From: Caballeronia sp. TF1N1
Lineage (GTDB): Bacteria; Pseudomonadota; Gammaproteobacteria; Burkholderiales; Burkholderiaceae
Reading direction: 5' to 3'
Length of the DNA stretch: 64,000 nt
Assembly: GCF_022878925.1 (NCBI RefSeq)
Contig: NZ_CP084630.1
Coordinates: 62,001-126,000, forward strand
The notes below the pieces were generated by a model, which was not told where the DNA came from, ran no database searches, and saw only the letters and a program-made list of their open reading frames with translations. The position numbers and the translations under genes are program-made. Numbering within the stretch: position 1 is the stretch's first letter; each line of letters opens with the position of its first letter. Below are positions 22,057-43,433 of this stretch, in pieces.

Positions 22057-22500
22057 TTATTGCGAAGAGTCCGATAGCCACTCTTGTACAGTCACCTCAA
22101 CAGTGATGAAGGTGGGATTCATGCCACGTACTAAGCGCCCGGCGACTACCTGACTGTCCGTTCCAGACAGTATTGCGGTTAGCTCCGTTGAGTATTGATC
22201 ATCCAGTATTGACGCCGATGTCGATACAACCTCCCCAAACAGTCCGACGATCTCGACGCCCGGCCCTTTAACCAATTGCACGGGTAGTGTCGTGTTCCCA
22301 CCGACCGACAGATTTCCATCGATCAAGCTGCCGACCGCGCTGCGCACGATGGCTCGTCGGATTTCAAAGCTCTCGCACAGTTTCTCCAGCGATTCGACGA
22401 TGTCTTCGTTCGGTTTCAAGCGAGCGATTACAGTCCGTCCGTAGACACCACATTTCATTTCAACGTCACACGAATCAATAAGCGTCTTCACGGTGCTCAC
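22057..22500 (-). CDS. PPC/DUF296 domain protein A, module 1
   Basis: A 147-residue protein made almost entirely of one PPC (DUF296) domain: TVIARLKPNEDIVESLEKLCESFEIRRAIVRSAVGSLIDGNLSVGG, GPGVEIVGLFGEV, and TFITVEVTVQEWL. The paralogue at 36151-36615 aligns along its length (GRxxxARxKPNxDxxESLxxLC; VRxxVGSLIDGNL; GPGVEIxxxxGE; FITxEVxVQEW). Bacterial PPC proteins form trimers; function is unknown and DNA binding is not established. The start is GTG 22500, overlapping the stop of protein B by 4 bp (GTGA), so the two are translationally coupled. Confidence 0.82.
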   Translation of the reverse strand: MSTVKTLIDSCDVEMKCGVYGRTVIARLKPNEDIVESLEKLCESFEIRRAIVRSAVGSLIDGNLSVGGNTTLPVQLVKGPGVEIVGLFGEVVSTSASILDDQYSTELTAILSGTDSQVVAGRLVRGMNPTFITVEVTVQEWLSDSSQ

Positions 22501-23024
22501 CCTATCGTGGTTGGTCCAAATAGTGTGTATCGCGTTTCCGCGTCGTCATACTTAGCGAAGCCCACATCCTCGGAGGTACAAAGATGTAATATCAATGACT
22601 CTTGGCCCACTTCAAGCCGATCCAAATCGAAGTGACCGCCATGTAGGCGCCCATCCGTACTGACGAAAGCTCCGTGGCAGTGCAGTTCAACCCCTCCTGA
22701 ATGATTCCGGCCGATCGTAATGGAACCATGCAATAAGGCGACTTCGCCGGTTTCTAGCATTGGCGCGCCGTAGACGTAAGGACGTTCGCCTTGCATTGCC
22801 TGAGTGACTAGGTGGTATTGCAGAGCGCTAGCAGTCCCGCTAGAAATTCGGCCAGTTGCGCCGGCGAACGCGTAGCGTGTCGCCAGAGCCCGTAATTCAA
22901 CGCCAGCGCATCTTCCGCTAGGAATTTCCACACGTATTTCACTCGGCTGCCGCACAAGCGCAGCTAGCACCCGCGGATGCGCTGCTAATCCAGGGTGATG
23001 GAACACGTTAGTTGTTGGCATCAT
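22497..23024 (-). CDS. PPC/DUF296 domain protein B, module 1
   Basis: A 175-residue PPC/DUF296 protein, first gene of a two-gene operon. It contains the His-rich core VELHCHGAFVSTDGRLHGGHFDLD, which in PPC folds supplies metal-binding histidines; partner A lacks this. Paralogue: 36612-37202 (ILHCHGGFVDETGKAHGGHI). ATG 23024 is followed immediately by a second ATG. A sigma-54 promoter (23057-23073) and a 9-bp palindrome (23034-23055) lie just upstream. The pairing of a His-containing and a His-lacking PPC protein suggests a hetero-oligomer; this is inference. Confidence 0.82.
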   Translation of the reverse strand: MMPTTNVFHHPGLAAHPRVLAALVRQPSEIRVEIPSGRCAGVELRALATRYAFAGATGRISSGTASALQYHLVTQAMQGERPYVYGAPMLETGEVALLHGSITIGRNHSGGVELHCHGAFVSTDGRLHGGHFDLDRLEVGQESLILHLCTSEDVGFAKYDDAETRYTLFGPTTIG

Positions 23025-23033
23025 TCGGCGGCC

Positions 23034-23055
23034 CTTATGGTTAGGAAACCATAAG
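23034..23055 (-). promoter_or_regulatory. Palindrome over the DUF296 module 1 transcription start
   Basis: CTTATGGTT-AGGA-AACCATAAG, perfect 9-bp arms with a 4-bp centre, between the sigma-54 -12 element and the start codon. The predicted transcription start (about 23047) falls inside it, as expected for a repressor operator. LysR proteins also bind such dyads. Module 2 has no copy at this position. Confidence 0.6.
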
Positions 23056-23056
23056 A

Positions 23057-23073
23057 TAGCAAATTTGATGCCT
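23057..23073 (-). promoter_or_regulatory. Sigma-54 promoter of DUF296 pair, module 1
   Basis: On the minus strand AGGCAT-CAAAT-TTGCTA gives the GG-N10-GC spacing of sigma-54 promoters (consensus TGGCAC-N5-TTGCA). It lies about 35 bp before the ATG at 23024. An activator gene of the matching class is about 1.3 kb away. Confidence 0.7.
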
Positions 23074-23161
23074 TTTGACGTAGCGCTTGTAAATCTTGCT
23101 CAGCAACGGCTTCGCATTTGTTTTGTCCTGCATCAACGTCTACAGATGGTTCTGGGAAGCG

Positions 23162-23188
23162 ACAGGTGTAGCGATAGGCGGTCGCTCA
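23162..23188 (-). promoter_or_regulatory. Candidate upstream activator site, module 1
   Basis: ACAGGTGTAGCG (23162-23173), part of a dyad GTAGCGA-N7-TCGCTCA (23168-23188). The same ACAG(A/G)TGTAGCG occurs at 37353 in module 2 at practically the same distance, about 90 bp, from the sigma-54 promoter and in the same orientation. Binding by the adjacent activator is inferred. Confidence 0.55.
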
Positions 23189-23239
23189 GACGTTGTTGTT
23201 CGGAATCGTCAAACGGCCGAAGAGGTGCGACAAGACACG

Positions 23240-24145
23240 TTAAATCACTTCCCTCGCATTCCTGCCGGAGAGGCCCATTTGGGCGGCAATATCGACAAAG
23301 CGCTCTACACACGGATTAAGCGTGTGTGGATTCCAGACGAGTGCCACATCGACGAACGGAGCATGTAGCAGCGGCACGAAACGAACGTTCTCAGCACGAG
23401 TGCTGCGCATCGAACTGTGAACAAGCGCCACACCAAGGTCCTGTGCCACCAAGTTCACGATGGTTTGCTGGAATTTCGTCTCAATGCGCACGCGCGGTGT
23501 GAAATTTGACCGACGACAGTGCTCGACAATGGTGTTGTAGATGAATGGAGATGCAGAATGTGGAGAAATGATGAACCAGTCTTCGCGCAACTCGGCGATG
23601 GATATAGCGGCTCGCATACAGAGCCGATGCCTTTCCGGCAACACCGCGACCAATTGCTCCCTGAACACTGTGCGGGTCTCAAGCTCAATCGCCGAATCGG
23701 ATGGATACATGACGCCAATATCGGCTTTACCTGCGTGGATATCGGCGACTAACTGTGTAGGAATGCTCTCGCTGAGCTTCAATTCGACGCGTGGGAATGC
23801 CGACGAATAAGCGCGTGTCAAGATTGGAACGATACTGTAAGCCGCAGCGAACATAAACCCGGCTACCAGTGATCCCTCCTCACCTAAGTCGGCGGCGCGT
23901 GCGTGGCTGCGCGCTTTATCCACAGTGGCCAGGATCATCTTCGCGTCGCTATAAAAGCGATGCCCTGCTGGCGAGAGGCGAACAACGCGACTTGTACGAT
24001 CTAGTAAAAGTACGCCGAGTTCGGTTTCGAGCAACGCAATTTGGCGCGACAACGGCGGTTGGGATATATGGAGGAGTGAAGCCGCTCGTCCGAAATGGAG
24101 CGTCTCTGCTAGCACCACGAAATAGCGTATTTGCCTCAGTTCCAT
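23240..24145 (-). CDS. LysR-family regulator, module 1
   Basis: A 301-residue LysR protein. The N-terminal winged helix is MELRQIRYFVVLAETLHFGRAASLLHISQPPLSRQIALLE; the effector-binding domain starts near residue 90 (SLVAGFMFAAAYSIVPILTRAYSSAFPRVELKLSE). The paralogue at 37392-38291 shares FMFAAAYS(I/V)VP, ESIP, the VAxxLGVALVHxSM-like segment and the WDP/WNPHTLNPC end. It lies upstream of the DUF296 pair in the same direction and is divergent from the sigma-54 activator gene. The effector is unknown; the shared binding domain suggests related ligands for both modules. Confidence 0.9.
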   Translation of the reverse strand: MELRQIRYFVVLAETLHFGRAASLLHISQPPLSRQIALLETELGVLLLDRTSRVVRLSPAGHRFYSDAKMILATVDKARSHARAADLGEEGSLVAGFMFAAAYSIVPILTRAYSSAFPRVELKLSESIPTQLVADIHAGKADIGVMYPSDSAIELETRTVFREQLVAVLPERHRLCMRAAISIAELREDWFIISPHSASPFIYNTIVEHCRRSNFTPRVRIETKFQQTIVNLVAQDLGVALVHSSMRSTRAENVRFVPLLHAPFVDVALVWNPHTLNPCVERFVDIAAQMGLSGRNAREVI

Positions 24146-24215
24146 GCGTAGCGGCCCCAGATTCGCGCTTCAGGCGTTTATCGATACCTTTGCCGTATCG
24201 ACGCTCGCATAATAA

Positions 24216-24230
24216 TGTATTGGAGCATAT
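24216..24230. promoter_or_regulatory. Motif shared by both LysR/activator intergenic regions
   Basis: TGTATTGGAGCATAT, in the divergent region between the LysR and activator genes. The module 2 counterpart is TGTATTGGAAAATAT at 38327-38341. Conservation in an otherwise different intergenic sequence suggests a LysR binding site (T-N11-A type). Confidence 0.5.
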
Positions 24231-24343
24231 TAATAAAGCCTTCTATCCTTGGTCTCGGAGACAAGCCGTCGGCAGCTCCTCACGTGATTCGCGAGGCCAC
24301 AAGCCCCGCCGATTCTGCCGACTAAATAAATATGAGAGATGCC

Positions 24344-25480
24344 ATGACCGCCCACGAACCGTTGGATCGCGCTGGTGCAAGCTCGCCCCCATTATCTTCG
24401 CTTCCCTTGAGTAGACTTTGCGGTGATGACCCTGCGATGATAGCCACACTGTCGCGAGCTCGCCTATTGATCGACCGACAGCTTCCCATCCTTATCCTTG
24501 GCGAAACTGGCACGGGGAAGGAGTACCTTGCTCGTGCGTTACACGAGTACAGTAGCCGATGCCGTGCGGCAATGGTCCCAGTCAATTGCGGCTCAATTCC
24601 GGAAAATTTGATCGAGAGCGAGTTGTTCGGATATTCTCGCGGAGCCTTTTCCGGCGCGCTCTCGAGCGGCATGAAGGGAAAGGTGATGCTCGCGCATCGC
24701 GGTACTCTTTTCCTTGATGAGATCGGAGATATGCCGGCCGCCCAACAAACTCGTCTTTTGCGAGTGCTCTCTGAGCGCGAGGTAACTCCGATCGGGTCGA
24801 CGGAACCTCTTAAAGTGGATCTTCAGCTGATCTGCGCGACTCATCAGAATATTGAATCGCATGTTGAAGCTGGAACGTTCCGAGAAGATCTTTACTATCG
24901 AATAGCGGTCGGTATCATACAATTGCCACCTGTGCGGGAAAGGCTCGACCTTGCTTGGATATTGCAATCGATTCTTGAAAGCGAAGTCCCCGGCATGACC
25001 TTAGAACGCAATGTCGACCGGGAGGCACGCGACATTCTGATGCAAAACCAATGGCCTGGAAATCTGCGCCAAATGCGCGCGGCCATTCAGTATGCATGTG
25101 CAGTCAGAAGCGACGAAATGATCCGCGCAGCGGACCTGCCTAGTAATCTTATGCCTGGCAAGATCGTTAGCAAGAGGCACCGCCCAGGGGTAACGCAACA
25201 ACCCTCATTCGATATGTCGCCAGACGCCTCCGGCTCGCTAGTTGAGCGGTCCAGCGCGCGACCTCTCAAGTGGCATACAGATATGCGAGGCCCGTCCGCC
25301 TCTCTACCTAGCGAGCGTGACAATATCCTCCGTGCGCTCTCAGCGAGCCGATGGAATATTTCTGCCGCATCACGTGATCTTGGGATTTGTCGAGCATCGC
25401 TGTATCGGAAGTTGCGGGAGCTTCGCATACCACATGTGCGCGACATGGGAAGTGACATCCTTATGGCGGACGCCGGTTAA
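24344..25480 (+). CDS. Sigma-54-dependent activator without sensory domain, module 1
   Basis: A bacterial enhancer-binding protein of about 378 residues. The AAA+ core begins almost at once: Walker A GETGTGKE (about 53-60), L1 loop GAFSGA (about 100-105; the family consensus is GAFTGA), Walker B GTLFLDEIGD and an Arg-finger region FREDLYYRIAVGIIQLPPVRER. A Fis-type helix-turn-helix (RDNILRALSASRWNISAASRDLGICRASLYRKLREL) closes the protein. There is no receiver, GAF or PAS domain, so activity must be controlled through expression or a partner. ATG 24344 has GAGAG upstream; ATG 24332 is the alternative. Confidence 0.9.
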   Translation: MTAHEPLDRAGASSPPLSSLPLSRLCGDDPAMIATLSRARLLIDRQLPILILGETGTGKEYLARALHEYSSRCRAAMVPVNCGSIPENLIESELFGYSRGAFSGALSSGMKGKVMLAHRGTLFLDEIGDMPAAQQTRLLRVLSEREVTPIGSTEPLKVDLQLICATHQNIESHVEAGTFREDLYYRIAVGIIQLPPVRERLDLAWILQSILESEVPGMTLERNVDREARDILMQNQWPGNLRQMRAAIQYACAVRSDEMIRAADLPSNLMPGKIVSKRHRPGVTQQPSFDMSPDASGSLVERSSARPLKWHTDMRGPSASLPSERDNILRALSASRWNISAASRDLGICRASLYRKLRELRIPHVRDMGSDILMADAG

Positions 25481-25799
25481 ACGATAGTTGCACTTCGAGC
25501 GCCATACCGATACTACACGCGATAGCCTGCAAAGCGAGAGTAAGCATTCTGCGGCCCAAAGGGGCGCCGAGTTGATCTTCGCGAATACGCGCTTACAAAT
25601 GCTAGTGTCGTGGCAGGTGTATAGGCGGCGCGTCGGACAAGTCAATCTGCTGGCGATGCGTTGGCCTTTGAAAACAGTAGGGCGCGTGAAGGGCGGTTAA
25701 CGCTACACGAATCCTTCGGCCGCGACGTTCACCGACTCTGAAATCTGCGCAGGCTTTTTTGCGATCGAGATTTATAGTATATAAACGCGGGGAAATCGA
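25481..25799. other. Intergenic region before 2Fe-2S reductase
   Basis: About 320 bp without a gene. TGGCGA-TGCGT-TGGCCT at 25651-25667 has GG-N10-GC spacing but a poor -12 box, and CGCTACA at 25701-25707 (reverse of TGTAGCG) lies downstream of it, so a sigma-54 promoter here is only a weak possibility. An AT-rich segment (TTTATAGTATATAAA) lies close to the 25800 start. Confidence 0.4.
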
Positions 25800-26831
25800 A
25801 TGGCTTATCAGGTGACGATTCAGCAAAGCGGCCGACAGTTCGAAGTCGAGCTGGGCGAAACTGTTTTAAATGCTGCGCTGCGTAAGAGTGTGCCTTTGCC
25901 CCACGGATGCAAGAACGGCGCATGCGGTGCGTGCAGAGGCATGATCGTGAAGGGTAAAGTTGTGCAAGGAGCGCATTCTCCGTCTGCACTGTCCAACGAT
26001 CAGAGAAGCCAGGGAATGGCGCTGTTCTGCTGTTCGACAGCGCAGACCGACCTCATCATTGAAGTTGACGAAGTGATCGCTGTTACTGGCATCAAGCCGA
26101 AGAGAATGCCATGCAGGGTTGAGAAGCTGGACCGTAAGACCGATGATGTCATCGAATTGAAGCTCAAAACAGCGCACGATATGCGGCTTCAATATCTCGC
26201 TGGACAGTACATCGAGATTCTCCTAAAAGATGGCAATAGGCGAAGTTACTCGATGGCCAGTCCGCCTCATCTTAACGGACCCCTTGAACTACACATCCGC
26301 TGGATGCCTGGCGGCGTATTAACGGACCATGTCTTTGGTGCAATGAAGGAACGTGATCTTCTGCGCATTGAAGGTCCATTTGGCACTTTCTTTTTACGTG
26401 AAGATTCGGACAAACCAGTCATTTTTTTCGCGTCGGGGACGGGCTTTGCGCCGATCAAGGCCATGATCGAGCACGCATTGTTCAAGGAACTGAGTCGTCC
26501 GATTTCGTTGTATTGGGGAGGACGCCGAAAGGAAGACCTTTACATGATGGCTTTGGCAGAACGTTGGGCGAGAGAGGTGCCGGGTTTCACCTTCGTTCCG
26601 GTACTCTCCGAACCCGGCGTTAACGGGAGTTGGCTCGGCCGGACAGGTTTGGTACACCGCGCGGTTATCGAAGATTTGCCCGACTTGAGCGGTTATCAGG
26701 TATATGCTTGTGGCGCGCCAGTAATGGTGGAAGCGGCGCGGCGCGACTTCACACTTTGCCACCGGTTGCCAACTGACGAATTCTTTGCAGATTCGTTCAC
26801 AAGTTCAGCAGACGTCAAAAATGTGGTGTGA
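25800..26831 (+). CDS. 2Fe-2S ferredoxin/FNR-type reductase (AscD-like)
   Basis: A 343-residue soluble electron-transfer reductase. The N-terminal plant-type ferredoxin domain has C-x4-C-x2-C in HGCKNGACGACRG and a further Cys in ALFCCS. The FAD-binding barrel carries the RSYSMAS motif and the NAD(P) domain has FASGTGFAPIKAMIEH and YACGAPVMVEAA. Order and length match CDP-6-deoxy-glucoseen reductase-like (AscD/UbiB-type flavin) reductases, which deliver electrons from NAD(P)H to an oxygenase or dehydratase. No such partner is adjacent; the AurF-like oxygenase 9 kb upstream is a speculative one. The gene stands alone on the plus strand. Confidence 0.88.
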   Translation: MAYQVTIQQSGRQFEVELGETVLNAALRKSVPLPHGCKNGACGACRGMIVKGKVVQGAHSPSALSNDQRSQGMALFCCSTAQTDLIIEVDEVIAVTGIKPKRMPCRVEKLDRKTDDVIELKLKTAHDMRLQYLAGQYIEILLKDGNRRSYSMASPPHLNGPLELHIRWMPGGVLTDHVFGAMKERDLLRIEGPFGTFFLREDSDKPVIFFASGTGFAPIKAMIEHALFKELSRPISLYWGGRRKEDLYMMALAERWAREVPGFTFVPVLSEPGVNGSWLGRTGLVHRAVIEDLPDLSGYQVYACGAPVMVEAARRDFTLCHRLPTDEFFADSFTSSADVKNVV

Positions 26832-26973
26832 TTCGAAGAGACGTTTTTGATCCTATGTTGGCAGAGCGAATCCGCGCGATGCGCCACTCATCAAGTCGTC
26901 GGCTATCGAGTCTGATGCCCGTTGATTCCGACATTGCTGCGATGCATTGTTGGCAAGCAGCACTCCCAGCTTG

Positions 26974-27927
26974 CTAACGGCTCGAGTTGCCCTTGCGGTC
27001 AGAATATCCACCGTCATTGCCGACGCAAGCCAGACGGCCAGCGTAATCTTGAGCGAATTGTGTTGCAATTCGACCGGAGCGGCCACCTCGCCCGAGAGCC
27101 CATTGCAAAGCGCATTGCCGTGCTTCGTCAACCTGTGTCGGAGTCAGTCCAAGCATCCTAAGCCGCTGATCAACGACGCCTAGATAATGCTCCTGCGAAA
27201 ACGGATAGAAGGTTATCCAGATTCCGAAGCGTTCTGACAGCGAAATTTTCTCCTCGATCGCGTCGCCCGGATGTAGTTCGCCATTTTCCGCAACGGAATG
27301 GGCTTCGTTGTCTCTTGCGTCTTCTGCTAACAAATGGCGCCGGTTCGACGTTGCATAAATGAGCACATTGCTGGCGTGGCCAGTCACAGACCCATCAAGC
27401 ACCGTTTTAAGTCCCTTATAGCCCGTCTCGCCCGGTTCGAAGGACAAGTCGTCGCAAAAGATTAGGAAGCGCTCGGACCGGTGACGCACGCGATCGAAGA
27501 TATCCGGTAAGTCATTCAGGGAGTCCTTTCCGACTTCAATAAGCCGCAGACCCTCGGGCGCAAATGCATGCAAGCAAGCTCTGACAAGGGAAGACTTGCC
27601 TGTTCCGCGCGCCCCAGTGAGGAGAACGTTGTTCGCGGGATATCCCATCACAAACTGGCGCGTGTTTTGCCGAATGGTTTCTATCTGGCGATCAACGTTG
27701 CATAACTCGTCGAACGGAGTCAGCATCGGATTGCTCACGGCGGCCAAGCGAGGCTTTCCAAACGGCCCGGCGGCGCCGTGCCAGCGAAACGCAATAGCCC
27801 CACGCCAATCGTCATCATTCGTTTGAGAGCTTCCCAGAGCTATTTCTGCCCACATGGCTAGCCGATCGAGCCGTTTGAATAGCCCGACAGTATCAAGCTC
27901 GTCCTTGTTTGTAGTTTCAACGGCCAT
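26974..27927 (-). CDS. DUF815-family P-loop ATPase
   Basis: A 317-residue AAA-type ATPase of the DUF815 family: LTPFDELCNVDRQIETIRQNTRQF, Walker A LLTGARGTGKSSLVRA, Walker B FLIFCDDLSFE, a sensor region NVLIYATSNRRHLL, and RGGRSGRIATQFAQDYAGR near the end. Related proteins usually stop close to this last motif, so the final 20 residues may be an extension caused by loss of the original stop. AAGGAG lies upstream of ATG 27927. It follows the EamA gene by 9 bp and is probably co-transcribed with it. Cellular role is unknown. Confidence 0.85.
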   Translation of the reverse strand: MAVETTNKDELDTVGLFKRLDRLAMWAEIALGSSQTNDDDWRGAIAFRWHGAAGPFGKPRLAAVSNPMLTPFDELCNVDRQIETIRQNTRQFVMGYPANNVLLTGARGTGKSSLVRACLHAFAPEGLRLIEVGKDSLNDLPDIFDRVRHRSERFLIFCDDLSFEPGETGYKGLKTVLDGSVTGHASNVLIYATSNRRHLLAEDARDNEAHSVAENGELHPGDAIEEKISLSERFGIWITFYPFSQEHYLGVVDQRLRMLGLTPTQVDEARQCALQWALGRGGRSGRIATQFAQDYAGRLACVGNDGGYSDRKGNSSR

Positions 27928-27936
27928 CTTTTCTCC

Positions 27937-28842: not shown

Positions 28843-28957
28843 AACAAGCTCTGAACCGTTGAAATCTATCCAAGGGCACCAATGATGCACGCAGTCCTTG
28901 CGGTCCGTCTAACGTCAAAGAGCCTTCATTCATCGCAAAACAGTCACTCTCACCCTG

Positions 28958-29785: not shown

Positions 29786-29802
29786 CTTTCTGACTCGACG
29801 CT

Positions 29803-29838: not shown

Positions 29839-29855
29839 TCGCGACTAATAGGAAG

Positions 29856-31203
<1,348 letters not shown>

Positions 31204-32575
31204 GGCTCTTTTGAAAACGGAGTGGGTAACGGGGCTCATCGGGCATGCTCATTAAAGCGCGAGAAGTCGAATTTTCCGGCGATGAGAAACAGGACAGTGC
31301 GCATGGTTTCGAAGCGAGCGTACCCGCGTGCTTTGCGTTTGGCGGCCTGAAACAGGCCGTTGATGGCTTCGATGAAGCCGTTGGTCTGGCGCGTCTGAGT
31401 CCAGGCGACAATGCCCTCGAAGTGTCGGCGAATCAGTCGGGCGACGTCCTTCATCGGTTCGACCTTCGAGCGCATGACGTTCGTACACCACTGGTGCAAC
31501 ATCGCCGACACGACATTGATTTGCTTGCGCTCAAGAATGTCGCGCAGTTGCTCGCGGTACAGCCACGCCCGGGCCGTGCGCTTGGTGGTGTACTGACTGA
31601 CGAGCGCCTCGAGGTCGGTCAGTTGGGCGAGATTCAGTTTGTTGGCATCTTTGAGCGGCGTCCAGCGCATGCCTTTGAGTTGCGGGTCGACCTTCTGTTG
31701 CTGCCTGCGCACCGTGTCGAGCGCCTTGGACGCGTGAGCAACGACGTGAAACTTGTCAAAGGTCAGTCGCGCGTCGGGCAGATGTTCATTGACGCCCTTG
31801 ATGAAAGCTGGCGACATGTCGATGCTGACCGAGCTGATTTGCTCGGACGTGCCACCGTGTTCGCCCAGGTAGGCCGCAAAGCGTTCAATCGTGCTGGCAT
31901 CCTTGCCGGTCGTGACGAACACGACCCGCCGCGCTCGCATATCGGCGACCAGCGTCAGATACTCATGACCGCGCCGATACGAGGTTTCGTCAATTGCCAC
32001 TGCCTTCACCTCAGACAGGTCAGCCCCCGCGAGTGCCAGCTCCACATACCGCGAACAGATGGCGTGTACTCGATGCCACGACAGGTTGACCGCACGCGCG
32101 ACAGCGGCAAACGGCATCTGCTGGGCGAGCATCAGTACGAGTGCCTCGAACAGCAGCGTAAAGCCGCTGAGTTGACCGACCCAATCAGGTTCGACCAACC
32201 GCACGGAGCCATCGGGCAAGCGCACACGCGGCACCCGCACTTCCAGAAAACATTCGTGTTGAAAGAAATTCAGGTGACGCAGACGCTTGATTTGCGTGTC
32301 GTGGACAGGATGCTCACCGGCAACTCCAGCATAGGAAAACCGGGTGCCCGCGACGAAGTCCACGGCAATGGTGAGTTGACGCTGAGCGGCATTGAAGTCA
32401 ACGCCTTGAACGTACCAGGGCGCGGTTATACCGAGAGCGGATTCGAACAGTTCATTCGTCATGGTTGCTTTGTCATGGCTCAGCTTATCAATTCTGGGCG
32501 CCTCAAGGATTCGCTTCGCCGGGCCTACTCCCGTCCTTGACCCGCCAACCCACCCACTCAAAACTCAAAAGAGGC
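31204..32575 (-). mobile_element. ISL3-family element, copy 1
   Basis: Complete 1372-bp element. Terminal inverted repeats are imperfect: GGCTCTTTTGAAAACGGAG on the left and, inverted, GCCTCTTTTGAGTTTTGAG on the right. It is flanked by the 8-bp direct repeat AACATTGA (31196-31203 and 32576-32583), the expected duplication size for ISL3. Compared with copy 2 (34571-35942, opposite orientation) I find two base differences, 31657/35489 and 32529/34617. Confidence 0.92.
31236..32462 (-). CDS. ISL3-family transposase (copy 1)
   Basis: A 408-residue DDE transposase from ATG 32462 (MTNELFESALGI). Catalytic region: first Asp in AVAIDETSYRRGHEYLTLVAD, second Asp in SIDMSPAFIKGV, and Glu in NGFIEAINGLFQAAKRKARGY. 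It differs from copy 2 by one residue in the segment GMRWTxLKDANK (Pro here, Leu in copy 2). An in-frame upstream extension exists but lies partly in the terminal repeat. Confidence 0.92.
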   Translation of the reverse strand: MTNELFESALGITAPWYVQGVDFNAAQRQLTIAVDFVAGTRFSYAGVAGEHPVHDTQIKRLRHLNFFQHECFLEVRVPRVRLPDGSVRLVEPDWVGQLSGFTLLFEALVLMLAQQMPFAAVARAVNLSWHRVHAICSRYVELALAGADLSEVKAVAIDETSYRRGHEYLTLVADMRARRVVFVTTGKDASTIERFAAYLGEHGGTSEQISSVSIDMSPAFIKGVNEHLPDARLTFDKFHVVAHASKALDTVRRQQQKVDPQLKGMRWTPLKDANKLNLAQLTDLEALVSQYTTKRTARAWLYREQLRDILERKQINVVSAMLHQWCTNVMRSKVEPMKDVARLIRRHFEGIVAWTQTRQTNGFIEAINGLFQAAKRKARGYARFETMRTVLFLIAGKFDFSRFNEHAR

Positions 32576-32607
32576 AACATTGATTAATCCCTGCAATTTG
32601 AAGTGAG

Positions 32608-33774
32608 TCAACGGCGTGCCTCAAGGATGCTTAAATAGTTCGTGACGGCTACGCCTCCCATATTGAACACGCCCGCCGTTCGCGCATTTCGAATTTGCAT
32701 CTTGCCCGCTTGACCGCTCACTTGCATCGCGGCCATTACATGCATCGAGACCCCAGTGGCGCCGATCGGGTGTCCTCTCGCCGCAAGGCCTCCAGATGGG
32801 TTGACAGGTAAAACTCCTTTCTTGCTCGTGACGCCGTCGAGGATGACGTTAGCTCCCTTTCCAGGCGCGGCTAGACCCATTGCTTCGTATTGGATCAGCT
32901 CAGCGATCGTAAAGCAGTCGTGCGTTTCTACGAGGGATAGATCGCCTAGCGTCATTTCGGCTTGCGCAAGGCCTTTCCGCCAAGCTATCTGCGCGCCCTC
33001 GAAGGCGATTGGATCATGTCGCGACAAGGTGTGAAGGTCGCTAATTTGAACCGCAGCCCTGAACTCAACGGCATTTTTCATGCGTCTTGCAACCCGTGGT
33101 GTCGCAATGATCAACGCTGATGCACCATCTGAAATCCTCGAACAGTCGGAGCGCTTTAGGGGACCGGCAACATAAGGGTTTTCATCGGAAGGCGTGCGAC
33201 AGAAGGCGAAATCAAAGGCTCTTTTTGTGGGGACGTAGTGGTTTGATATACCGTTGCAATAGTTCTTGGAGGCGATCGACGCGAGCGCGTCAGACTGATC
33301 ACCATAACGGTCAAAGTACGTCTGGGTGAGTTTGCCAAAGATCGTAGCTAGACGATCCGATGCCTGTACCAAGTCCCTCGTGTAGGAACGGTTTCGTGCA
33401 ACTTCTTCTATCTCGGCAGTTGGATGGCTAGACGTTTTTTCGTATCCTAAAACGAGGGTGCAGGTCGAACGTCCAGACCTTAATGCATCCAACGCCGAGT
33501 AGATTGCTGCCGAACCTGTCGAGCAAGCGTTTTCGCACCGGACAGTCGACGTGAAACGTAATTCGGGAACTGACTCAAATACAGATGCAGAGGAAATATT
33601 TTCGTAGGCAGAGGTGCCGTTGAACGTCCCAACGTGGATGGAATCGATTTGTCTCACATCGATTCCGGCATGGTCGAACGCTTCACGTGCAGTGTCGGCG
33701 ATCAATCGTTTAACATCCATATGATCGAGCGTATCGAACGAACTGTGACTCCATCCGATGATGGTCGGTTTCAT
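32608..33774 (-). CDS. SCP2-type thiolase 1
   Basis: A 388-residue thiolase of the SCP-x/SCP2 class, which cleave or form C-C bonds in acyl-CoA thioesters. Nucleophile Cys in VRCENACSTGSAAIYSALDA; HDCFTIAEL; catalytic His in NPSGGLAARGHPIGATG; GG loop in VFNMGGVAVTNY. It is closely similar to the thiolase at 43434-44606 over its whole length, both beginning with IIGWSH. ATG 33774 is preferred over the frame opening at 33804 because the sigma-54 promoter (33810-33826) leaves a 25-nt leader. It lies between two inverted ISL3 copies. Confidence 0.88.
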   Translation of the reverse strand: MKPTIIGWSHSSFDTLDHMDVKRLIADTAREAFDHAGIDVRQIDSIHVGTFNGTSAYENISSASVFESVPELRFTSTVRCENACSTGSAAIYSALDALRSGRSTCTLVLGYEKTSSHPTAEIEEVARNRSYTRDLVQASDRLATIFGKLTQTYFDRYGDQSDALASIASKNYCNGISNHYVPTKRAFDFAFCRTPSDENPYVAGPLKRSDCSRISDGASALIIATPRVARRMKNAVEFRAAVQISDLHTLSRHDPIAFEGAQIAWRKGLAQAEMTLGDLSLVETHDCFTIAELIQYEAMGLAAPGKGANVILDGVTSKKGVLPVNPSGGLAARGHPIGATGVSMHVMAAMQVSGQAGKMQIRNARTAGVFNMGGVAVTNYLSILEARR

Positions 33775-33809
33775 GCTAGATAACGTTAAATATCGATGGA
33801 CCATCCAAC

Positions 33810-33826
33810 ATGCAAGAGCTACGCCA
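33810..33826 (-). promoter_or_regulatory. Sigma-54 promoter of thiolase 1
   Basis: On the minus strand TGGCGT-AGCTC-TTGCAT, close to the consensus TGGCAC-N5-TTGCA, with the predicted start near 33799 and the thiolase ATG at 33774. The TGTAGCG copy at 34042-34048 lies about 215 bp upstream in the same orientation as in the DUF296 promoters. Confidence 0.65.
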
Positions 33827-34041
33827 TCAAGGAAGACGACGAAGATTTTTTCGCGGCGAACCTGATGGCTAACGTCAAGGTTGATCTAACTGAGCGGGCC
33901 ATTAGAGCCGCAAGTGATTTGGAAAGCTTTCGTGAAGTTGTACTTGCGACAGTTGTCGCATACGTTAGACACCTGTTCACTTTGTACGACAAGACAGTTC
34001 GACAACTACATCCTGTTCCGGGCGATTGCTGATATCGCCTC

Positions 34042-34050
34042 TGTAGCGCT
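34042..34050 (-). promoter_or_regulatory. TGTAGCG site upstream of thiolase 1
   Basis: TGTAGCGCT (34042-34050), containing part of the palindrome TAGCGCTA. The seven-base core matches the candidate activator sites of both DUF296 promoters. A seven-base match can occur by chance; the position upstream of a sigma-54 promoter supports it. Confidence 0.4.
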
Positions 34051-34272
34051 ATCTGCATCCTAGATGCATCATGTCTAGCCCTTGTTGATTTGACCCACTG
34101 GCAGCTGTCATCTACTCTCCGACAGAGACGACATATCCAAGAAGCAGCTGATCCACGTACATGTCTTTCCATCACGGCCGCGATCTCAGAGAAGAGAACC
34201 GTCTTTCACTCATGTGCAAGAATGCCGGCCGACAATATTACTTCATAGCATCGGATGCAGGAGGCTACGCCA

Positions 34273-34506
34273 ATGATCGATACCTCAATTGCCGTGTTCT
34301 GTCCGCACTGCCTACGAAGCGCGAACGTGCGGTGTCCAGTAGAAGCAGTCGAAAGTGAGCGGCTGAAGAACTTAGAAGCACCAGAGGGGTTTCGAAAGGT
34401 TCAAACAAGTGCGTTTAGCAATGCTATCTTTTTCTACTGCATGCAGTGTGCTGTCCCGGCAGAGATACATGATTTTGTCACTATCCGGTCCTGCTCAAAG
34501 CACTGA
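34273..34506 (+). CDS. Small zinc-ribbon-like protein
   Basis: A 77-residue protein with two Cys pairs, FCPHC near the start and YCMQC near residue 57, suggesting a zinc ribbon. ATG 34273 has CAGGAGG 8 bp upstream. No family recognised. It stands alone between the thiolase 1 promoter region and the second ISL3 copy. Confidence 0.5.
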   Translation: MIDTSIAVFCPHCLRSANVRCPVEAVESERLKNLEAPEGFRKVQTSAFSNAIFFYCMQCAVPAEIHDFVTIRSCSKH

Positions 34507-34570
34507 TTGCATCCGTTAATCCGATGCGAACATTGAACGTCGTAGACAGGAAGCAAAACCAATAGATAAA

Positions 34571-35942
34571 GCCTCTTTTGAGTTTTGAGTGGGTGGGTTG
34601 GCGGGTCAAGGACGGGCGTAGGCCCGGCGAAGCGAATCCTTGAGGCGCCCAGAATTGATAAGCTGAGCCATGACAAAGCAACCATGACGAATGAACTGTT
34701 CGAATCCGCTCTCGGTATAACCGCGCCCTGGTACGTTCAAGGCGTTGACTTCAATGCCGCTCAGCGTCAACTCACCATTGCCGTGGACTTCGTCGCGGGC
34801 ACCCGGTTTTCCTATGCTGGAGTTGCCGGTGAGCATCCTGTCCACGACACGCAAATCAAGCGTCTGCGTCACCTGAATTTCTTTCAACACGAATGTTTTC
34901 TGGAAGTGCGGGTGCCGCGTGTGCGCTTGCCCGATGGCTCCGTGCGGTTGGTCGAACCTGATTGGGTCGGTCAACTCAGCGGCTTTACGCTGCTGTTCGA
35001 GGCACTCGTACTGATGCTCGCCCAGCAGATGCCGTTTGCCGCTGTCGCGCGTGCGGTCAACCTGTCGTGGCATCGAGTACACGCCATCTGTTCGCGGTAT
35101 GTGGAGCTGGCACTCGCGGGGGCTGACCTGTCTGAGGTGAAGGCAGTGGCAATTGACGAAACCTCGTATCGGCGCGGTCATGAGTATCTGACGCTGGTCG
35201 CCGATATGCGAGCGCGGCGGGTCGTGTTCGTCACGACCGGCAAGGATGCCAGCACGATTGAACGCTTTGCGGCCTACCTGGGCGAACACGGTGGCACGTC
35301 CGAGCAAATCAGCTCGGTCAGCATCGACATGTCGCCAGCTTTCATCAAGGGCGTCAATGAACATCTGCCCGACGCGCGACTGACCTTTGACAAGTTTCAC
35401 GTCGTTGCTCACGCGTCCAAGGCGCTCGACACGGTGCGCAGGCAGCAACAGAAGGTCGACCCGCAACTCAAAGGCATGCGCTGGACGCTGCTCAAAGATG
35501 CCAACAAACTGAATCTCGCCCAACTGACCGACCTCGAGGCGCTCGTCAGTCAGTACACCACCAAGCGCACGGCCCGGGCGTGGCTGTACCGCGAGCAACT
35601 GCGCGACATTCTTGAGCGCAAGCAAATCAATGTCGTGTCGGCGATGTTGCACCAGTGGTGTACGAACGTCATGCGCTCGAAGGTCGAACCGATGAAGGAC
35701 GTCGCCCGACTGATTCGCCGACACTTCGAGGGCATTGTCGCCTGGACTCAGACGCGCCAGACCAACGGCTTCATCGAAGCCATCAACGGCCTGTTTCAGG
35801 CCGCCAAACGCAAAGCACGCGGGTACGCTCGCTTCGAAACCATGCGCACTGTCCTGTTTCTCATCGCCGGAAAATTCGACTTCTCGCGCTTTAATGAGCA
35901 TGCCCGATGAGCCCCGTTACCCACTCCGTTTTCAAAAGAGCC
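34571..35942 (+). mobile_element. ISL3-family element, copy 2
   Basis: Complete 1372-bp element in opposite orientation to copy 1, with the same terminal repeats, flanked by its own 8-bp duplication TAGATAAA (34563-34570 and 35943-35950). Because each copy keeps matching duplications, the two inserted separately and no inversion between them has been fixed. Confidence 0.92.
34684..35910 (+). CDS. ISL3-family transposase (copy 2)
   Basis: A 408-residue DDE transposase, same as copy 1 except Leu for Pro in the GMRWT-x-LKDANK segment (codon CTG versus CCG). All catalytic motifs (VAIDETSYRRGH, SIDMSPAF, FIEAINGLF) are intact, so both copies may be active. Confidence 0.92.
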   Translation: MTNELFESALGITAPWYVQGVDFNAAQRQLTIAVDFVAGTRFSYAGVAGEHPVHDTQIKRLRHLNFFQHECFLEVRVPRVRLPDGSVRLVEPDWVGQLSGFTLLFEALVLMLAQQMPFAAVARAVNLSWHRVHAICSRYVELALAGADLSEVKAVAIDETSYRRGHEYLTLVADMRARRVVFVTTGKDASTIERFAAYLGEHGGTSEQISSVSIDMSPAFIKGVNEHLPDARLTFDKFHVVAHASKALDTVRRQQQKVDPQLKGMRWTLLKDANKLNLAQLTDLEALVSQYTTKRTARAWLYREQLRDILERKQINVVSAMLHQWCTNVMRSKVEPMKDVARLIRRHFEGIVAWTQTRQTNGFIEAINGLFQAAKRKARGYARFETMRTVLFLIAGKFDFSRFNEHAR

Positions 35943-36026
35943 TAGATAAACATACGACTACAGCGGATGTCTGGAACCAGTATTTGGCAAGTATAAAAGA
36001 AGGAAAATTAGGCAAAACGTGGCATT

Positions 36027-36054
36027 AAAAAAAAGAGCCCGGCTTTCCCGGGCT
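36027..36054 (-). terminator. Rho-independent terminator of DUF296 operon, module 2
   Basis: Stem AGCCCGG/CCGGGCT (36036-36054) followed, on the minus strand, by an eight-base U-run (36027-36034). It lies about 100 bp after the stop of the DUF296 A gene at 36151. Confidence 0.85.
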
Positions 36055-36150
36055 AATAACTCGTGAGTCGCGAGCACGAGCTAACCTCTCGAGATTGCTA
36101 ACTTCTCGTGATCATACGAAGGGATGCTATCGCGAGCCCCTTAGGCCAAG

Positions 36151-36615
36151 TTATGCAATCTCGTTGTTTGAACCTATTTGACGTCGCGGCGCTATCATGA
36201 CTTCCGCATCCTCAATCCACTCCTGTACCGATACCTCAATAGTGATGAAAGATAGGTTCGATCCTGGCATGAATCGACCGGCGTAGATCTGCCCAGCCGT
36301 GTCGGCGACAACGCCGTGGAGCGATACCGCTGCAGCATCGCTCGTTGCATTCAATATCTCACCGTACACGCTTAATATTTCGACGCCGGGGCCCCGAATG
36401 TGGACAATTTGCTCGGAATCGTCTTGACCACGCGCGAGATTGCCGTCGATTAAGCTGCCGACCACTCCACGAACCACGGCATTATGAAAGCCATTTGCAC
36501 GACACAGCACGACCAGTGATTCAGCCAGGTCTTGGTTAGGTTTTATTCGAGCAACCAGTAGTCGGCCGTAGTGCCCACGTTTTACAACGACTGCATCGGC
36601 GATGTGTTCGCTCAT
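36151..36615 (-). CDS. PPC/DUF296 domain protein A, module 2
   Basis: A 154-residue PPC/DUF296 protein without the His-rich core: GRLLVARIKPNQDLAESLVVLCRANGFHNAVVRGVVGSLIDGNLARG, GPGVEILSVYGEI, and NLSFITIEVSVQEWIED. ATG 36615 overlaps the stop of protein B (ATGA). Same architecture and partner arrangement as 22057-22500. Confidence 0.82.
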   Translation of the reverse strand: MSEHIADAVVVKRGHYGRLLVARIKPNQDLAESLVVLCRANGFHNAVVRGVVGSLIDGNLARGQDDSEQIVHIRGPGVEILSVYGEILNATSDAAAVSLHGVVADTAGQIYAGRFMPGSNLSFITIEVSVQEWIEDAEVMIAPRRQIGSNNEIA

Positions 36616-37202
36616 GATTTGATGACCGGCTTCAGTAAGTCAAAAGTGGTTTCGATATCTGGTGTGACCAAGAGGTCGACACCGTCGAAAAGGCATAGCC
36701 TGACGGTCAATCCGTCGCAGCCTGCATAACTTTGGTCCAATATAATATGACCGCCGTGTGCTTTCCCGGTCTCATCAACAAAGCCGCCATGACAGTGAAG
36801 GATCCTGGTGCGATCATATTTGTGACCAACCGTGATCGCGGCACCGATCAGCATGCTTACCCCAGTGACAACGATAGGAGGGCCATATATATATGGCTTT
36901 ACTCCTTCAGACGCTCGTGTCATTACGTGATACTGGACTTTCTGGCAGAAGCCACCGACGATGCGGCCACAACCGGCTCGAAGACCATAATCGTCTATGA
37001 CCCCGTGGAGGACGCGTCCCACGTTACTGCCTCTGGGCACTGAAATCCGAAGTTCCTCGGTCACCTGACTGGTGGATACGTCTATCAAACGAGGGTGAGT
37101 CACCTGTCCCGGATGAATGAAGGGCTGAGAATGAAATTTTCGATCGTCGTCCCGCCGTGCCTCTGAGGCAAGGGTGCCGGGGGCTGACATTGAGTGATGC
37201 AT
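36612..37202 (-). CDS. PPC/DUF296 domain protein B, module 2
   Basis: A 196-residue PPC/DUF296 protein with the His-containing core RILHCHGGFVDETGKAHGGHIILD, preceded by a 20-residue extension relative to the module 1 paralogue. Shared features include HPGxxxHPR near the N-terminus, GRI(S/V)GG/SG, YH(L/V)(V/M)T(Q/R)A, PY(V/I)YG and ITVG/ITIG. ATG 37202 has AGAGGAG 8 bp upstream. The gene is first in an operon behind a strong sigma-54 promoter and ends at a terminator after partner A. Confidence 0.82.
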   Translation of the reverse strand: MHHSMSAPGTLASEARRDDDRKFHSQPFIHPGQVTHPRLIDVSTSQVTEELRISVPRGSNVGRVLHGVIDDYGLRAGCGRIVGGFCQKVQYHVMTRASEGVKPYIYGPPIVVTGVSMLIGAAITVGHKYDRTRILHCHGGFVDETGKAHGGHIILDQSYAGCDGLTVRLCLFDGVDLLVTPDIETTFDLLKPVIKS

Positions 37203-37245
37203 GAATGGTTCTCCTCTGAGCGCCTCGATAAAGGCCAGCCCATCC

Positions 37246-37262
37246 TTGCAAAAAGGGTGCCG
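37246..37262 (-). promoter_or_regulatory. Sigma-54 promoter of DUF296 pair, module 2
   Basis: On the minus strand CGGCAC-CCTTT-TTGCAA, one base from the consensus TGGCAC-N5-TTGCA with exact GG-N10-GC spacing. The predicted start is near 37235, giving a leader of about 33 nt. Confidence 0.82.
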
Positions 37263-37302
37263 GTGCTACAAGAATCTCCGAAAGGCGCGCAGGTTAGCGT
37301 TC

Positions 37303-37323
37303 TTGAGCGTCTGCGACGCTCAA
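37303..37323 (-). promoter_or_regulatory. Perfect palindrome upstream of sigma-54 promoter, module 2
   Basis: TTGAGCGTC-TGC-GACGCTCAA, 9-bp arms, about 40 bp upstream of the -24 element. Could be a binding site for the LysR protein or the activator; no equivalent was found in module 1. Confidence 0.5.
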
Positions 37324-37352
37324 AAACGAAATCCATATCGACTCAGCATGCA

Positions 37353-37383
37353 ACAGATGTAGCGCAGCGCACGCGACACCTGT
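37353..37383 (-). promoter_or_regulatory. Candidate upstream activator site, module 2
   Basis: ACAGATGTAGCG (37353-37364) within a dyad: ACAGATGT pairs with ACACCTGT (37376-37383, one mismatch), and TGTAGCG with CGCGACA across 7 bp. It is about 91 bp upstream of the -24 element, matching module 1 in sequence, spacing and orientation. Confidence 0.58.
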
Positions 37384-37391
37384 GTACTACA

Positions 37392-38291
37392 TCAGGCACT
37401 AGGATCTCCCAATGCACCGACCTCCTCAGCAACAGCTACGAATGTCTCGATGCATGGGTTCCTGTTTAGCGGATCCCAAGTGACATTTAATTCGATGTAT
37501 GGCGGATCTCGCAGCGGCCTGAACTTTACTTTCCTTGGCCGTGCGGTCTTCATTGACTTGTGTACTAATGCGACGCCAAGACCTTGCCCGACCAGTGTCA
37601 CGATTGTTTGCTGATAGTTTGTCTCGAGACGTATCTTTGGCTCGAAGCCGCGCTGCTTGCAGTGCCCGAGGATAATGTCGTAGATGTATGGAGCTGCTGT
37701 TCTCGGCGAGATTAGGAACGACTCGTCTCGTAGATCAACGACGTCGATGGGGCCACTCCCACGAGCCAGATGATGGCCCGCCGGAAGAGCAGCCAAGAGG
37801 GGTTCCCGAAAAACCGTCTTTGTTGCCAGTTCACGAAGGTCGACCGGCGGGTACATCAGAGCGACGTCGGTAGTGCTTTGTCGAATGTCTTGCATGAGAA
37901 GTCGAGGAATCGACTCAGTGAGGTGAAGATCCACTGCCGGATACCGAGAAGCGTAGGCCAGCGTTATCGGGGGCACGACGCTGTATGCCGCCGCGAACAT
38001 AAAACCTACCGAAAGAGAGCCACTGCCGCCTTGGCTCGCGGTCCTCGCATTCTGTTTTGCTCGCTCCACCGACCCAAGAATGTCTTTGGCATCGTGCTGA
38101 AACCTCTTGCCTGCGGCCGACAACTTTACGCTCCTCCGATTGCGCTCAAACAGCACAACGCCCACCTCCTCCTCAAGCAACGCGATTTGTCGCGACAACG
38201 GCGGTTGTGAAATGTTCAGACGTTCAGCAGCGCGCCCAAAGTGCAGGGTTTCCGCCAAGGTAACAAAGTAGTGGAGATGCCGTAACTCCAT
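37392..38291 (-). CDS. LysR-family regulator, module 2
   Basis: A 299-residue LysR protein from ATG 38291 (MELRHLHYFVTLAETLHFGRAAERLNISQPPLSRQ). The effector domain begins SLSVGFMFAAAYSVVPPITLAY. The frame is open further upstream, but every family member starts at MELR. Paralogous to 23240-24145. It precedes the DUF296 operon and is divergent from the activator gene, with the TGTATTGGA motif between them. Confidence 0.9.
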   Translation of the reverse strand: MELRHLHYFVTLAETLHFGRAAERLNISQPPLSRQIALLEEEVGVVLFERNRRSVKLSAAGKRFQHDAKDILGSVERAKQNARTASQGGSGSLSVGFMFAAAYSVVPPITLAYASRYPAVDLHLTESIPRLLMQDIRQSTTDVALMYPPVDLRELATKTVFREPLLAALPAGHHLARGSGPIDVVDLRDESFLISPRTAAPYIYDIILGHCKQRGFEPKIRLETNYQQTIVTLVGQGLGVALVHKSMKTARPRKVKFRPLRDPPYIELNVTWDPLNRNPCIETFVAVAEEVGALGDPSA

Positions 38292-38326
38292 GTTATTCCC
38301 TGTAGGTATCACAGCCTGCCTTTTAT

Positions 38327-38341
38327 TGTATTGGAAAATAT
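38327..38341. promoter_or_regulatory. Motif shared with module 1 LysR/activator intergenic region
   Basis: TGTATTGGAAAATAT, matching 24216-24230 at 13 of 15 positions. It lies 36 bp upstream of the LysR start codon and about 120 bp before the activator start chosen here. Confidence 0.5.
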
Positions 38342-38462
38342 GAGTGGCGAGCATTACTCTTGCATCACACAGTCGCATATGTATCGGCCAAAAGCCGTTA
38401 GCGCGCCGGTTAAGAGCTATGGCTTACCACCAAGTGAGCCGAATACAAGAACGGAGACAGTC

Positions 38463-39533
38463 GTGAGCCACCAAAAAGTAGCCCACAACGCCCCTTCACA
38501 GGGTTCAGTGGTTAAACGAAAGCCTGACGTACTCGACAGTGCAATGCTGGACGTTATGGACCGTGGCCGATGTTTCACCGATCGCGGTATTCCAGTTCTA
38601 CTGCTCGGTGAGACTGGGACCGGCAAAGAAGTGGTTGCTCGGAAGTTGCACGAGCAAAGCACGCGCGGGGCACAGCCTCTCATTACGCTCAACTGCGCAT
38701 CGATTCCTGAGTCATTGGTGGAAAGCGAGCTCTTCGGCTATGCTCGCGGTGCATTCTCCGGTGCATTGCCCGGCGGTATGAAAGGGAAGATTGAAGCGGC
38801 CGATGGCGGTACGCTCTTCCTTGACGAAATCGGCGACATGCCACTTAATCAACAGGCTCGACTACTGCGAGCACTTTCAGAGCGAGAAATCACGCCACTA
38901 GGTGCCACGAAACCCGTGCCCGTTGATTTCCAACTAATTTGCGCGACGCACCAAGACTTGCCGAAGCTTGTTCGCACAGGTGCTTTCCGCTCTGACCTTT
39001 TCTATCGGATTGCAGTTGGAATTCTTCGTCTGCCGACGCTACGGGAGCGCGCTGACTTCGAAATTCTCGTATCACAAATTGCAGAAGAAGAATTCGGTGG
39101 TTCGGTATCAATTGAAACAAGTACTTGGGAGCTGCTCCTTGAATGCGAATGGCCTGGAAACATTCGACAACTGCGGGCAGCGCTGCGGTGTGCATGTGCG
39201 TTGAGTAAAGACGGCACGCTTCGTCCTCACGACTTGCCCCTTGACCTTATTCTCCTCCCGCCGGCTGTCCCTTCGTTAGAAGCTGAGCGCTCGATCCACT
39301 CGAGCTTAGTGAACAAGGCGGACATCTTCGCAGATGCTAACCCCTCTCAAAAACGCGAACGCGTCATCCAAGTTCTAGCGGGCAGTCGATGGAACATGTC
39401 TGCCGCAGCGAAAAATCTTGGGATCTGCCGATCCACACTTTATCGGCAACTAAAGTCCCTCGGTATTACCCACATCAAGGACGCTGAGGTGGCGTTGAGT
39501 AGCGCCTCACCTGTCCTTGCCGCCAGACGATAA
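38463..39533 (+). CDS. Sigma-54-dependent activator without sensory domain, module 2
   Basis: A 356-residue enhancer-binding protein: GETGTGKE (about 49-56), GAFSGA (about 96-101) in place of GAFTGA, GTLFLDEIGD, SDLFYRIAVGILRLPTLRER, and a C-terminal Fis helix-turn-helix (IQVLAGSRWNMSAAAKNLGICRSTLYRQLKSL). GTG 38463 is chosen because GGAG lies 7 bp upstream and the N-terminus then matches its paralogue in length; an upstream ATG (38340) overlaps the shared regulatory motif. No sensory domain. It faces the TRAP operon. Confidence 0.88.
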   Translation: MSHQKVAHNAPSQGSVVKRKPDVLDSAMLDVMDRGRCFTDRGIPVLLLGETGTGKEVVARKLHEQSTRGAQPLITLNCASIPESLVESELFGYARGAFSGALPGGMKGKIEAADGGTLFLDEIGDMPLNQQARLLRALSEREITPLGATKPVPVDFQLICATHQDLPKLVRTGAFRSDLFYRIAVGILRLPTLRERADFEILVSQIAEEEFGGSVSIETSTWELLLECEWPGNIRQLRAALRCACALSKDGTLRPHDLPLDLILLPPAVPSLEAERSIHSSLVNKADIFADANPSQKRERVIQVLAGSRWNMSAAAKNLGICRSTLYRQLKSLGITHIKDAEVALSSASPVLAARR

Positions 39534-43411: not shown

Positions 43412-43433
43412 TACTAACTTGGAGGAATTTATC

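Follow-up and report, generated by a model that had tools for sequence, protein, structure and literature searches.

Bacterial PCC proteins (also PPC; DUF296, PF03479) have solved structures and a metal site and, to our knowledge, no settled function. Acetolactate decarboxylase and C11orf54 (PTD012), with which they are compared below, both act on alpha-hydroxy-beta-keto acids. For C11orf54/PTD012, the activity of a 3-dehydro-L-gulonate decarboxylase was identified in 2025; the protein has a three-His Zn site and a structure akin to that of acetolactate decarboxylase (PMC12435205, commentary). Prokaryotic PCC proteins are described as trimers in a passage of PMC4209074, and a passage of PMC7667037 describes the Escherichia coli DUF296 protein LmiA as regulating virulence and proposes a three-His zinc site for it. 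Here we analyzed a window of 64,000 nucleotides of Caballeronia sp. TF1N1 (C5:62001-126000 of the 7.07 Mb genome; contig C5 is NZ_CP084630.1), in which two PCC-type proteins, A and B, are encoded side by side in two modules. The B-A pair appears to represent a PCC branch divided into two subunits, sometimes fused, and is a probable metalloenzyme of a locus encoding a tripartite ATP-independent periplasmic (TRAP) transporter, an acyl-CoA ligase and a thiolase.

Both modules, lying about 14 kb apart, have the same gene order, with LysR-B-A on the minus strand and a divergent sigma-54 activator on the plus strand (Table 1). The positions and directions given for all eight genes in an initial annotation of the window were correct, and the features it had read from them were found again: a 4-bp overlap between the A and B genes of each module (22497-22500 and 36612-36615), an H-x-H...GGH core in protein B and not in A (HCH...GGH in B1 and B2, in neither A), and an SCP2-type thiolase in each module. 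It had also called all four gene pairs paralogous, and their BLASTP similarities were far beyond chance at 36-53% identity (A1/A2: 43%, E = 4e-40; B1/B2: 36%, E = 6e-38; LysR 1/LysR 2: 53%, E = 1e-115; activator 1/activator 2: 47%, E = 1e-108). A recent duplication was rejected, because module 1 is nearer to L047-L049 and module 2 nearer to L014/L017/L050 (our locus numbers) than the modules are to each other; the two copies have diverged, and each has its closer relatives in other genomes. The rest of the genome contains one further PCC gene above the Pfam cut-off, a single-domain one on contig C2, and one sub-threshold PCC match on contig C1. The conserved MELRHL near 38291 is very probably the start of LysR 2, and that of activator 2 is uncertain, so that the 5' ends of these two genes need not overlap.

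That A and B belong together, as initially proposed, was borne out at 64 loci examined elsewhere, which are part of all profile matches (23 from the family of the host, 5 from its order, 5 further family copies, 19 from the phylum and 12 from plasmids). B was always accompanied by A, and at 30 loci the two were joined in one open frame with B first, while at 34 they were split; since a fused query had served to find part of the phylum and plasmid loci, the fused share (30/64) is not a frequency. An Agrobacterium plasmid (L143) has a split A/B pair beside a fused B-A in the opposite direction, and was counted as fused. At L155, ligase, B and A form one frame of 831 residues, in which Pfam recognizes the ligase and A parts and the B profile the middle; this fusion comes from one genome, and an assembly error is possible. 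Among 398 genomes of the family, the B profile matched 44 (in 8 of 25 genera), and among 300 of the order it matched 6, with the host's own genome included; the fused B-A profile matched 25 of 398 genomes of the phylum. Four named contigs with B are from Paraburkholderia or Burkholderia. B2 matched 19 plasmid records and the fused protein 65, and plasmids with B-A include those of Sinorhizobium, Paracoccus, Phyllobacterium, Roseomonas, Variovorax and others (genera among the matches listed, the best 20 of 65).

Neighbours of B-A were scanned in stretches of 11-20 kb, with identity and length thresholds chosen by us. An acyl-CoA ligase was found near B-A at 54 of the 64 loci, an SCP2-type thiolase at 41 and the TRAP binding protein DctP at 40, and at least one of the three at 57; seven loci had the ligase only. 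A sigma-54 activator was near B-A at nine loci, all from the family set. Since ligase, thiolase or DctP genes are found at 57/64 loci against 9/64 for the activator, B-A is, judging by its neighbours, a partner of enzymes; the regulatory genes are not what is conserved with it, and the four genes together form one of the layouts that the larger locus takes. A ligase, thiolase, DctP or activator was found at 0 of the 14 single-gene PCC loci, for ten of which the stretch was 18 kb. The annotated order in Paracoccus is TRAP permease, TRAP binding protein, helix-turn-helix (HTH) protein, acetyl-CoA acetyltransferase, acyl-CoA synthetase, fused DUF296 protein and short-chain dehydrogenase, and in Roseomonas mucosa a thiamine pyrophosphate enzyme annotated as acetolactate synthase is one gene away from B-A. 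L145, L147 and L150 have an overlapping ligase and fused B-A pair, with neither such a thiolase nor such TRAP genes close by. At L053, L054 and L060, B-A stands apart from catabolic genes, beside a weakly similar LysR (23-24%) and a 759-aa protein that looks MetE-like by eye; a 30-aa ligase-like match lies nearby on the other strand at L054.

As to their family, A1 and A2 scored 63.5 and 56.6 bits against PF03479 (cut-off 25), whereas B1 and B2 stayed below the cut-off (21.5 and 18.5 bits) and B relatives at L136 and L138 exceeded it (28.1 and 26.5 bits). Although the score of B2 is sub-threshold, its AlphaFold model shows the PCC fold (pLDDT 74.9, with residues 1-42 below 50; 88.5 for A2). 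When the A2 and B2 models were ranked by fold, solved PCC proteins came first, followed by acetolactate decarboxylases and then PTD012, all above unrelated folds. By sequence, a PDB search gave no match for B2, one chance-level row for A1 and four weak PCC rows for A2; Pfam gave no match of the window's A or B to acetolactate decarboxylase (PF03306, at E 0.01), to DUF1907 of C11orf54 or to an HTH family. No profile-level link to acetolactate decarboxylase was seen with hhalign (probability at most 1.8), its profile being an imperfect one from eight loci, of which L165 lacked a usable frame and L163 was kept with the motif picked at the wrong place.

Residues were compared by aligning 13 single-gene PCC proteins from the order with 26 A and 26 B sequences, leaving out eight near-identical loci (L049, L059, L063-L066, L074 and L075) and the rows of L060 and L077; L086, one of the 14 single-gene loci, gave no match. 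The three histidines of HxH...GGH were present in 13/13 single-gene proteins and 26/26 B, the spacing from the second to the third being 13 residues in B (12 in L072) against 10 in acetolactate decarboxylases. In A, these positions were His in 2, 4 and 0 of 26 and never HxH, and the third was Arg in 21. Conversely, Arg37, Asp43, Ser73, Glu107 and Glu164 (alignment column numbers) were found in 13, 12, 13, 13 and 13 of the 13 single-gene proteins and in 25, 26, 26, 26 and 26 of the 26 A, and in only 0, 0, 6, 0 and 1 of the 26 B. Thus the set carried by one chain in the single-gene relatives is divided between B and A, and by this alignment the residue loss is complementary. The simplest explanation of this loss is a putative composite site, probably formed where A and B meet.

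Several clues bear on the substrate. The nearest PDB match of the window's DctP is 4oan; 44 DctPs of the searched set, the window's included, were 55-81% identical to it and three others 26-30%. We take 4OAN to be RPB_2686 of Rhodopseudomonas palustris HaA2, presumably with (S)-2-acetolactate modelled as the ligand. A D-lactate dehydrogenase is encoded in the window and also at L015 and L051 (2/23 family loci), and thiolysis of 2-acetolactyl-CoA to lactoyl-CoA would explain its presence. In a passage of a review, 2-acetolactate is among the ligands of a TRAP binding-protein survey (PMC5812351). Transporter, acetolactate synthase and D-lactate dehydrogenase together make a chain of hints toward an acetolactate-type substrate.

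The pairing of B with A, the B-A fusions and the one ligase-B-A fusion, the complementary loss, the linkage to enzymes and importer, and the sigma-54-like sites and shared palindrome described below can all be read from the sequences. They are best explained, we think with reasonable though limited confidence, by a metalloenzyme split in two that would act on an alpha-hydroxy-beta-keto acid of the acetolactate type and be under LysR/activator/sigma-54 control. A and B would be two subunits of one enzyme of the PCC / acetolactate-decarboxylase / C11orf54 fold group, in which B would supply the metal through its three histidines and A its conserved residues, one each of Arg, Asp and Ser and two of Glu. 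The TRAP importer would take up a 2-acetolactate-type acid, on which B-A would perform an acetolactate-decarboxylase-like step, either decarboxylation or a carboxylate rearrangement; alongside, CoA activation and thiolysis could convert 2-acetolactyl-CoA to acetyl-CoA and lactoyl-CoA. The parts of this reading differ in strength: we are confident that B-A is an enzyme rather than a regulator, the case for an acetolactate-type substrate is evenly balanced, and we lean against a decarboxylase in the strict sense. Going further, B-A could be the first recognized PCC enzyme, a heteromeric 2-acetolactate decarboxylase/rearrangase with its site at the A-B interface, belonging to an unrecorded route for the use of acetolactate-type acids, and single-gene bacterial PCC proteins could likewise be metalloenzymes with sites between trimer subunits, a proposal we consider somewhat unlikely.

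The alternative that survives best keeps B-A as an enzyme of the same operon and changes its chemistry, for instance to that of a hydratase, isomerase/epimerase or thioesterase with the CoA ester produced by the ligase as substrate. Of all neighbours the ligase is the most constant, and once it is fused to B-A; no enoyl-CoA hydratase family was matched by the window proteins scanned, so that a step between ligase and short-chain dehydrogenase could be missing; moreover, an earlier report credits PTD012 with ester hydrolysis (PMC12435205). However, the characterized relatives of the fold are decarboxylases, and the transporter is akin to a protein whose ligand is presumably a keto acid; we consider this alternative unlikely, if still worth weighing.

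The regulatory genes allow the control part of the preferred split-enzyme reading to be considered. Both LysR proteins carry HTH_1 and the substrate domain (PF00126/PF03466), as LysR regulators do, and both activators have the AAA+ domain PF00158 (209 and 204 bits) and HTH_8 of bacterial enhancer-binding proteins, with no sensor domain found by Pfam. The activator loop reads GAFSGA in the two window copies and 12 relatives, and GAFTGA in the distant L162. A defence system was also considered and rejected: PADLOC gave nothing for A1 or B1, and for activator 1 its matches lie in the AAA/HTH part of RtcR/PspF-type models, outside their first 160+ positions.

The four-gene arrangement of A-B-LysR and divergent activator occurred in 11 copies, two in the window and nine in L014-L057 (9/23 family loci). 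The initial annotation had regarded it as a conserved cassette; it does recur, but at 55 of the 64 B-A loci the stretch contains no such activator, and the genes were also found apart, with the LysR-activator pair at the far cluster end in three of four Pandoraea-like clusters (L096-L098, not L099). The pair was not found in the alphaproteobacterial plasmid stretches, where B-A stays with the enzymes, and a LysR-type gene (35-38% identity) lies beside B without an activator at L068, L135 and L140. The LysR gene at L096:1241-2160 matches in two overlapping pieces, being either broken or affected by a sequencing error.

Sigma-54-like sites were scored with a hand-weighted -24/-12 consensus (GG-N10-GC). 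The score of AGGCATCAAATTTGCT ahead of B1 was reached by 0.3% of 400 random 500-nt window stretches, and the whole window has seven sites scoring at least 0.86 on both strands. A site of at least 0.87 lay upstream of B in 11/11 copies with an adjacent activator and in 1/24 without, for which the Fisher value of 3e-8 is overstated because of the hand-weighted score. No good site was seen ahead of the module 2 DctP (best 0.65). In eight Pandoraea-like loci (L056, L058, L059, L062-L066), sigma-54-like sites stand instead ahead of the thiolase-ligase-B-A and TRAP genes, with one to three copies of TGCGACA-NN-TGTCGCA (at least 12/14) between them. The exact palindrome occurred ten times in eight cluster-bearing genomes, eight of these at the cluster and one genome having none, and the reversed control had no match in the eight. 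Weaker matches (at least 11/14) numbered 29 in the activator-bearing set against 9 after shuffling, not far above chance. By eye, TCCAATA was seen upstream of LysR in 7/8 stretches (not L057), and an ATACC-N5-GGTAT-like box in most of the eight, imperfect in module 2.

Control of the pair by LysR and a sensor-less activator, as first suggested, is plausible in view of the sites at 11/11 copies, and in the family of the host we infer a LysR/sigma-54 relay over the B-A locus. LysR would sense a pathway compound and switch on the activator gene, and the sensor-less activator would bind TGCGACA-NN-TGTCGCA and drive the sigma-54 promoters of B-A and thiolase.

The same genes could be read the other way round, with B-A as a transcription factor or a control protein of the sensor-less activator, in the way that PspA is the control protein of PspF, and LysR as the sensor. 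The 11 copies of the arrangement, the frequent annotation of PCC proteins as DNA-binding and the virulence regulation attributed to LmiA in the cited passage of PMC7667037 would fit such a role. Against it, an AT-hook was seen in 0/34 A and 0/34 B, scanned over the domain stretches and without the N-terminal extensions that relatives carry; the window's A and B match no HTH family, and in one genome an acyl-CoA ligase forms a single frame with B-A. It was dropped as the leading explanation because the activator is not in the stretch at 55/64 loci, and we regard it as improbable. That B-A is a non-catalytic ligase partner, an assembly factor or metal store, would fit the ligase linkage and fusion and is very improbable, as the separate conserved residue sets of A and B exceed the needs of an inert scaffold.

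Module 1 differs from its relatives in the surrounding DNA. L048/L049 have the order thiolase-ligase-aldo-keto reductase, and in module 1 no ligase remnant was found between thiolase and aldo-keto reductase, an ISL3-type insertion sequence being in that place. Two inverted ISL3-type copies (31203-32575 and 34571-35943), 99.85% identical over 1373 bp, flank thiolase 1, whose true start probably lies some 10 codons downstream of 33804. We rejected a 118-aa frame at 33819-34175 as a gene, as it matched no family and contains the palindrome. The region 14698-22027 has a biosynthetic-looking run of genes (DUF3050, an AurF-like oxygenase, a 1231-aa adenylation-carrier-reductase protein, a polyketide-cyclase-like protein and an aminotransferase), and the module-1-like locus of L048/L049 is likewise adjoined by an aminotransferase and by a similar protein some 1240 residues long. 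G+C is mostly 53-56% over 6000-52000 against 61-68% in parts of the flanks, which suggests that 6000-52000 is acquired DNA.

Table 1. Features of the two B-A modules and adjoining genes (window positions).
Feature	Position	Strand	Basis or remark
A1, PCC (PF03479) subunit without metal histidines	22057..22500	-	Pfam, BLASTP, alignment
B1, PCC-type subunit with HCH...GGH putative metal site	22497..23024	-	Pfam, BLASTP, alignment
Sigma-54 -24/-12-like site AGGCATCAAATTTGCT upstream of B1	23058..23073	-	score 0.87
Possible degenerate TGCGACA-NN-TGTCGCA copy	23158..23173	.	11/14
LysR-type regulator 1	23240..24145	-	PF00126 + PF03466
Activator 1, AAA+ sigma-54 activator (GAFSGA), Fis-type HTH, no sensor domain found	24332..25480	+	Pfam
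SCP2-type thiolase 1	32608..33804	-	NCBIfam NF005704, matched from residue 11 on
Weaker sigma-54-like site TGGCGTAGCTCTTGCA ahead of thiolase 1	33811..33826	-	score 0.83
Perfect palindrome TGCGACAGTTGTCGCA, presumed activator binding site	33945..33960	.	only exact copy in 7.07 Mb genome
A2, PCC subunit without metal histidines	36151..36615	-	Pfam, BLASTP; AlphaFold model pLDDT 88.5
B2, PCC-type subunit with HCH...GGH putative metal site	36612..37202	-	Pfam, BLASTP; model pLDDT 74.9
Sigma-54 -24/-12-like site CGGCACCCTTTTTGCA upstream of B2	37247..37262	-	score 0.93 (attained in 0.5% of random stretches)
Possible degenerate TGCGACA-NN-TGTCGCA copy	37349..37364	.	11/14
LysR-type regulator 2, conserved start MELRHL near 38291	37392..38378	-	Pfam
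Activator 2, AAA+ sigma-54 activator (GAFSGA) with uncertain 5' end, no sensor domain found	38331..39533	+	Pfam
TRAP solute-binding protein	39660..40682	+	63.8% identical to PDB chain 4oan
TRAP DctQ-DctM fused membrane protein	40688..42583	+	
Short-chain dehydrogenase	42605..43411	+	
SCP2-type thiolase 2	43374..44606	+	NCBIfam NF005704
Acyl-CoA ligase, most constant B-A partner	44590..46248	+	NF005676
Hexapeptide protein, similar to gamma carbonic anhydrase/PaaY but below their cut-offs	46110..46805	+	
D-lactate dehydrogenase	46866..48719	+	NF008387, above cut-off

Since this PCC branch is tied to a definite gene set and to a transporter of guessable ligand, its function should be testable with few substrates, and the residue split together with the natural fusions allows the location of the working site to be tested directly. 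If the proposal is true, genes of soil and plant-associated bacteria annotated as 'DNA-binding protein' or 'DUF296' would be re-read as catabolic enzymes. In the open-licence literature we found no paper combining DUF296 with thiolase or with acetolactate decarboxylase, and none combining acetolactate, TRAP transporter, thiolase and acyl-CoA synthetase.

Among known systems, PspF/HrpS-type sensor-less activators resemble the window activators in having an AAA+ core and HTH with no sensor domain found, whereas the window activators read GAFSGA and pair with a divergent LysR. Plant AHL-type DNA-binding PPC proteins carry an AT-hook, unlike the A and B domain stretches. C11orf54/PTD012 (DUF1907, 1xcr) is an enzyme of a sugar-acid pathway, to whose family A and B have no Pfam match. 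Acetolactate decarboxylase (PF03306; 4bt2, 5yho, 5xne) is, in its solved structures, one chain of about 230 residues; it has no Pfam or profile match to A or B, and B resembles it in carrying the three-His motif HxH...GGH (26/26). Finally, single-gene PCC proteins such as AF0104 (2h6l), PH0802 (2dt4), 3hwu and 3htn have all the residues in one chain, whereas B-A distributes them over two chains, and its genes sit with catabolic genes, as those of none of the 14 single-gene PCC loci do.

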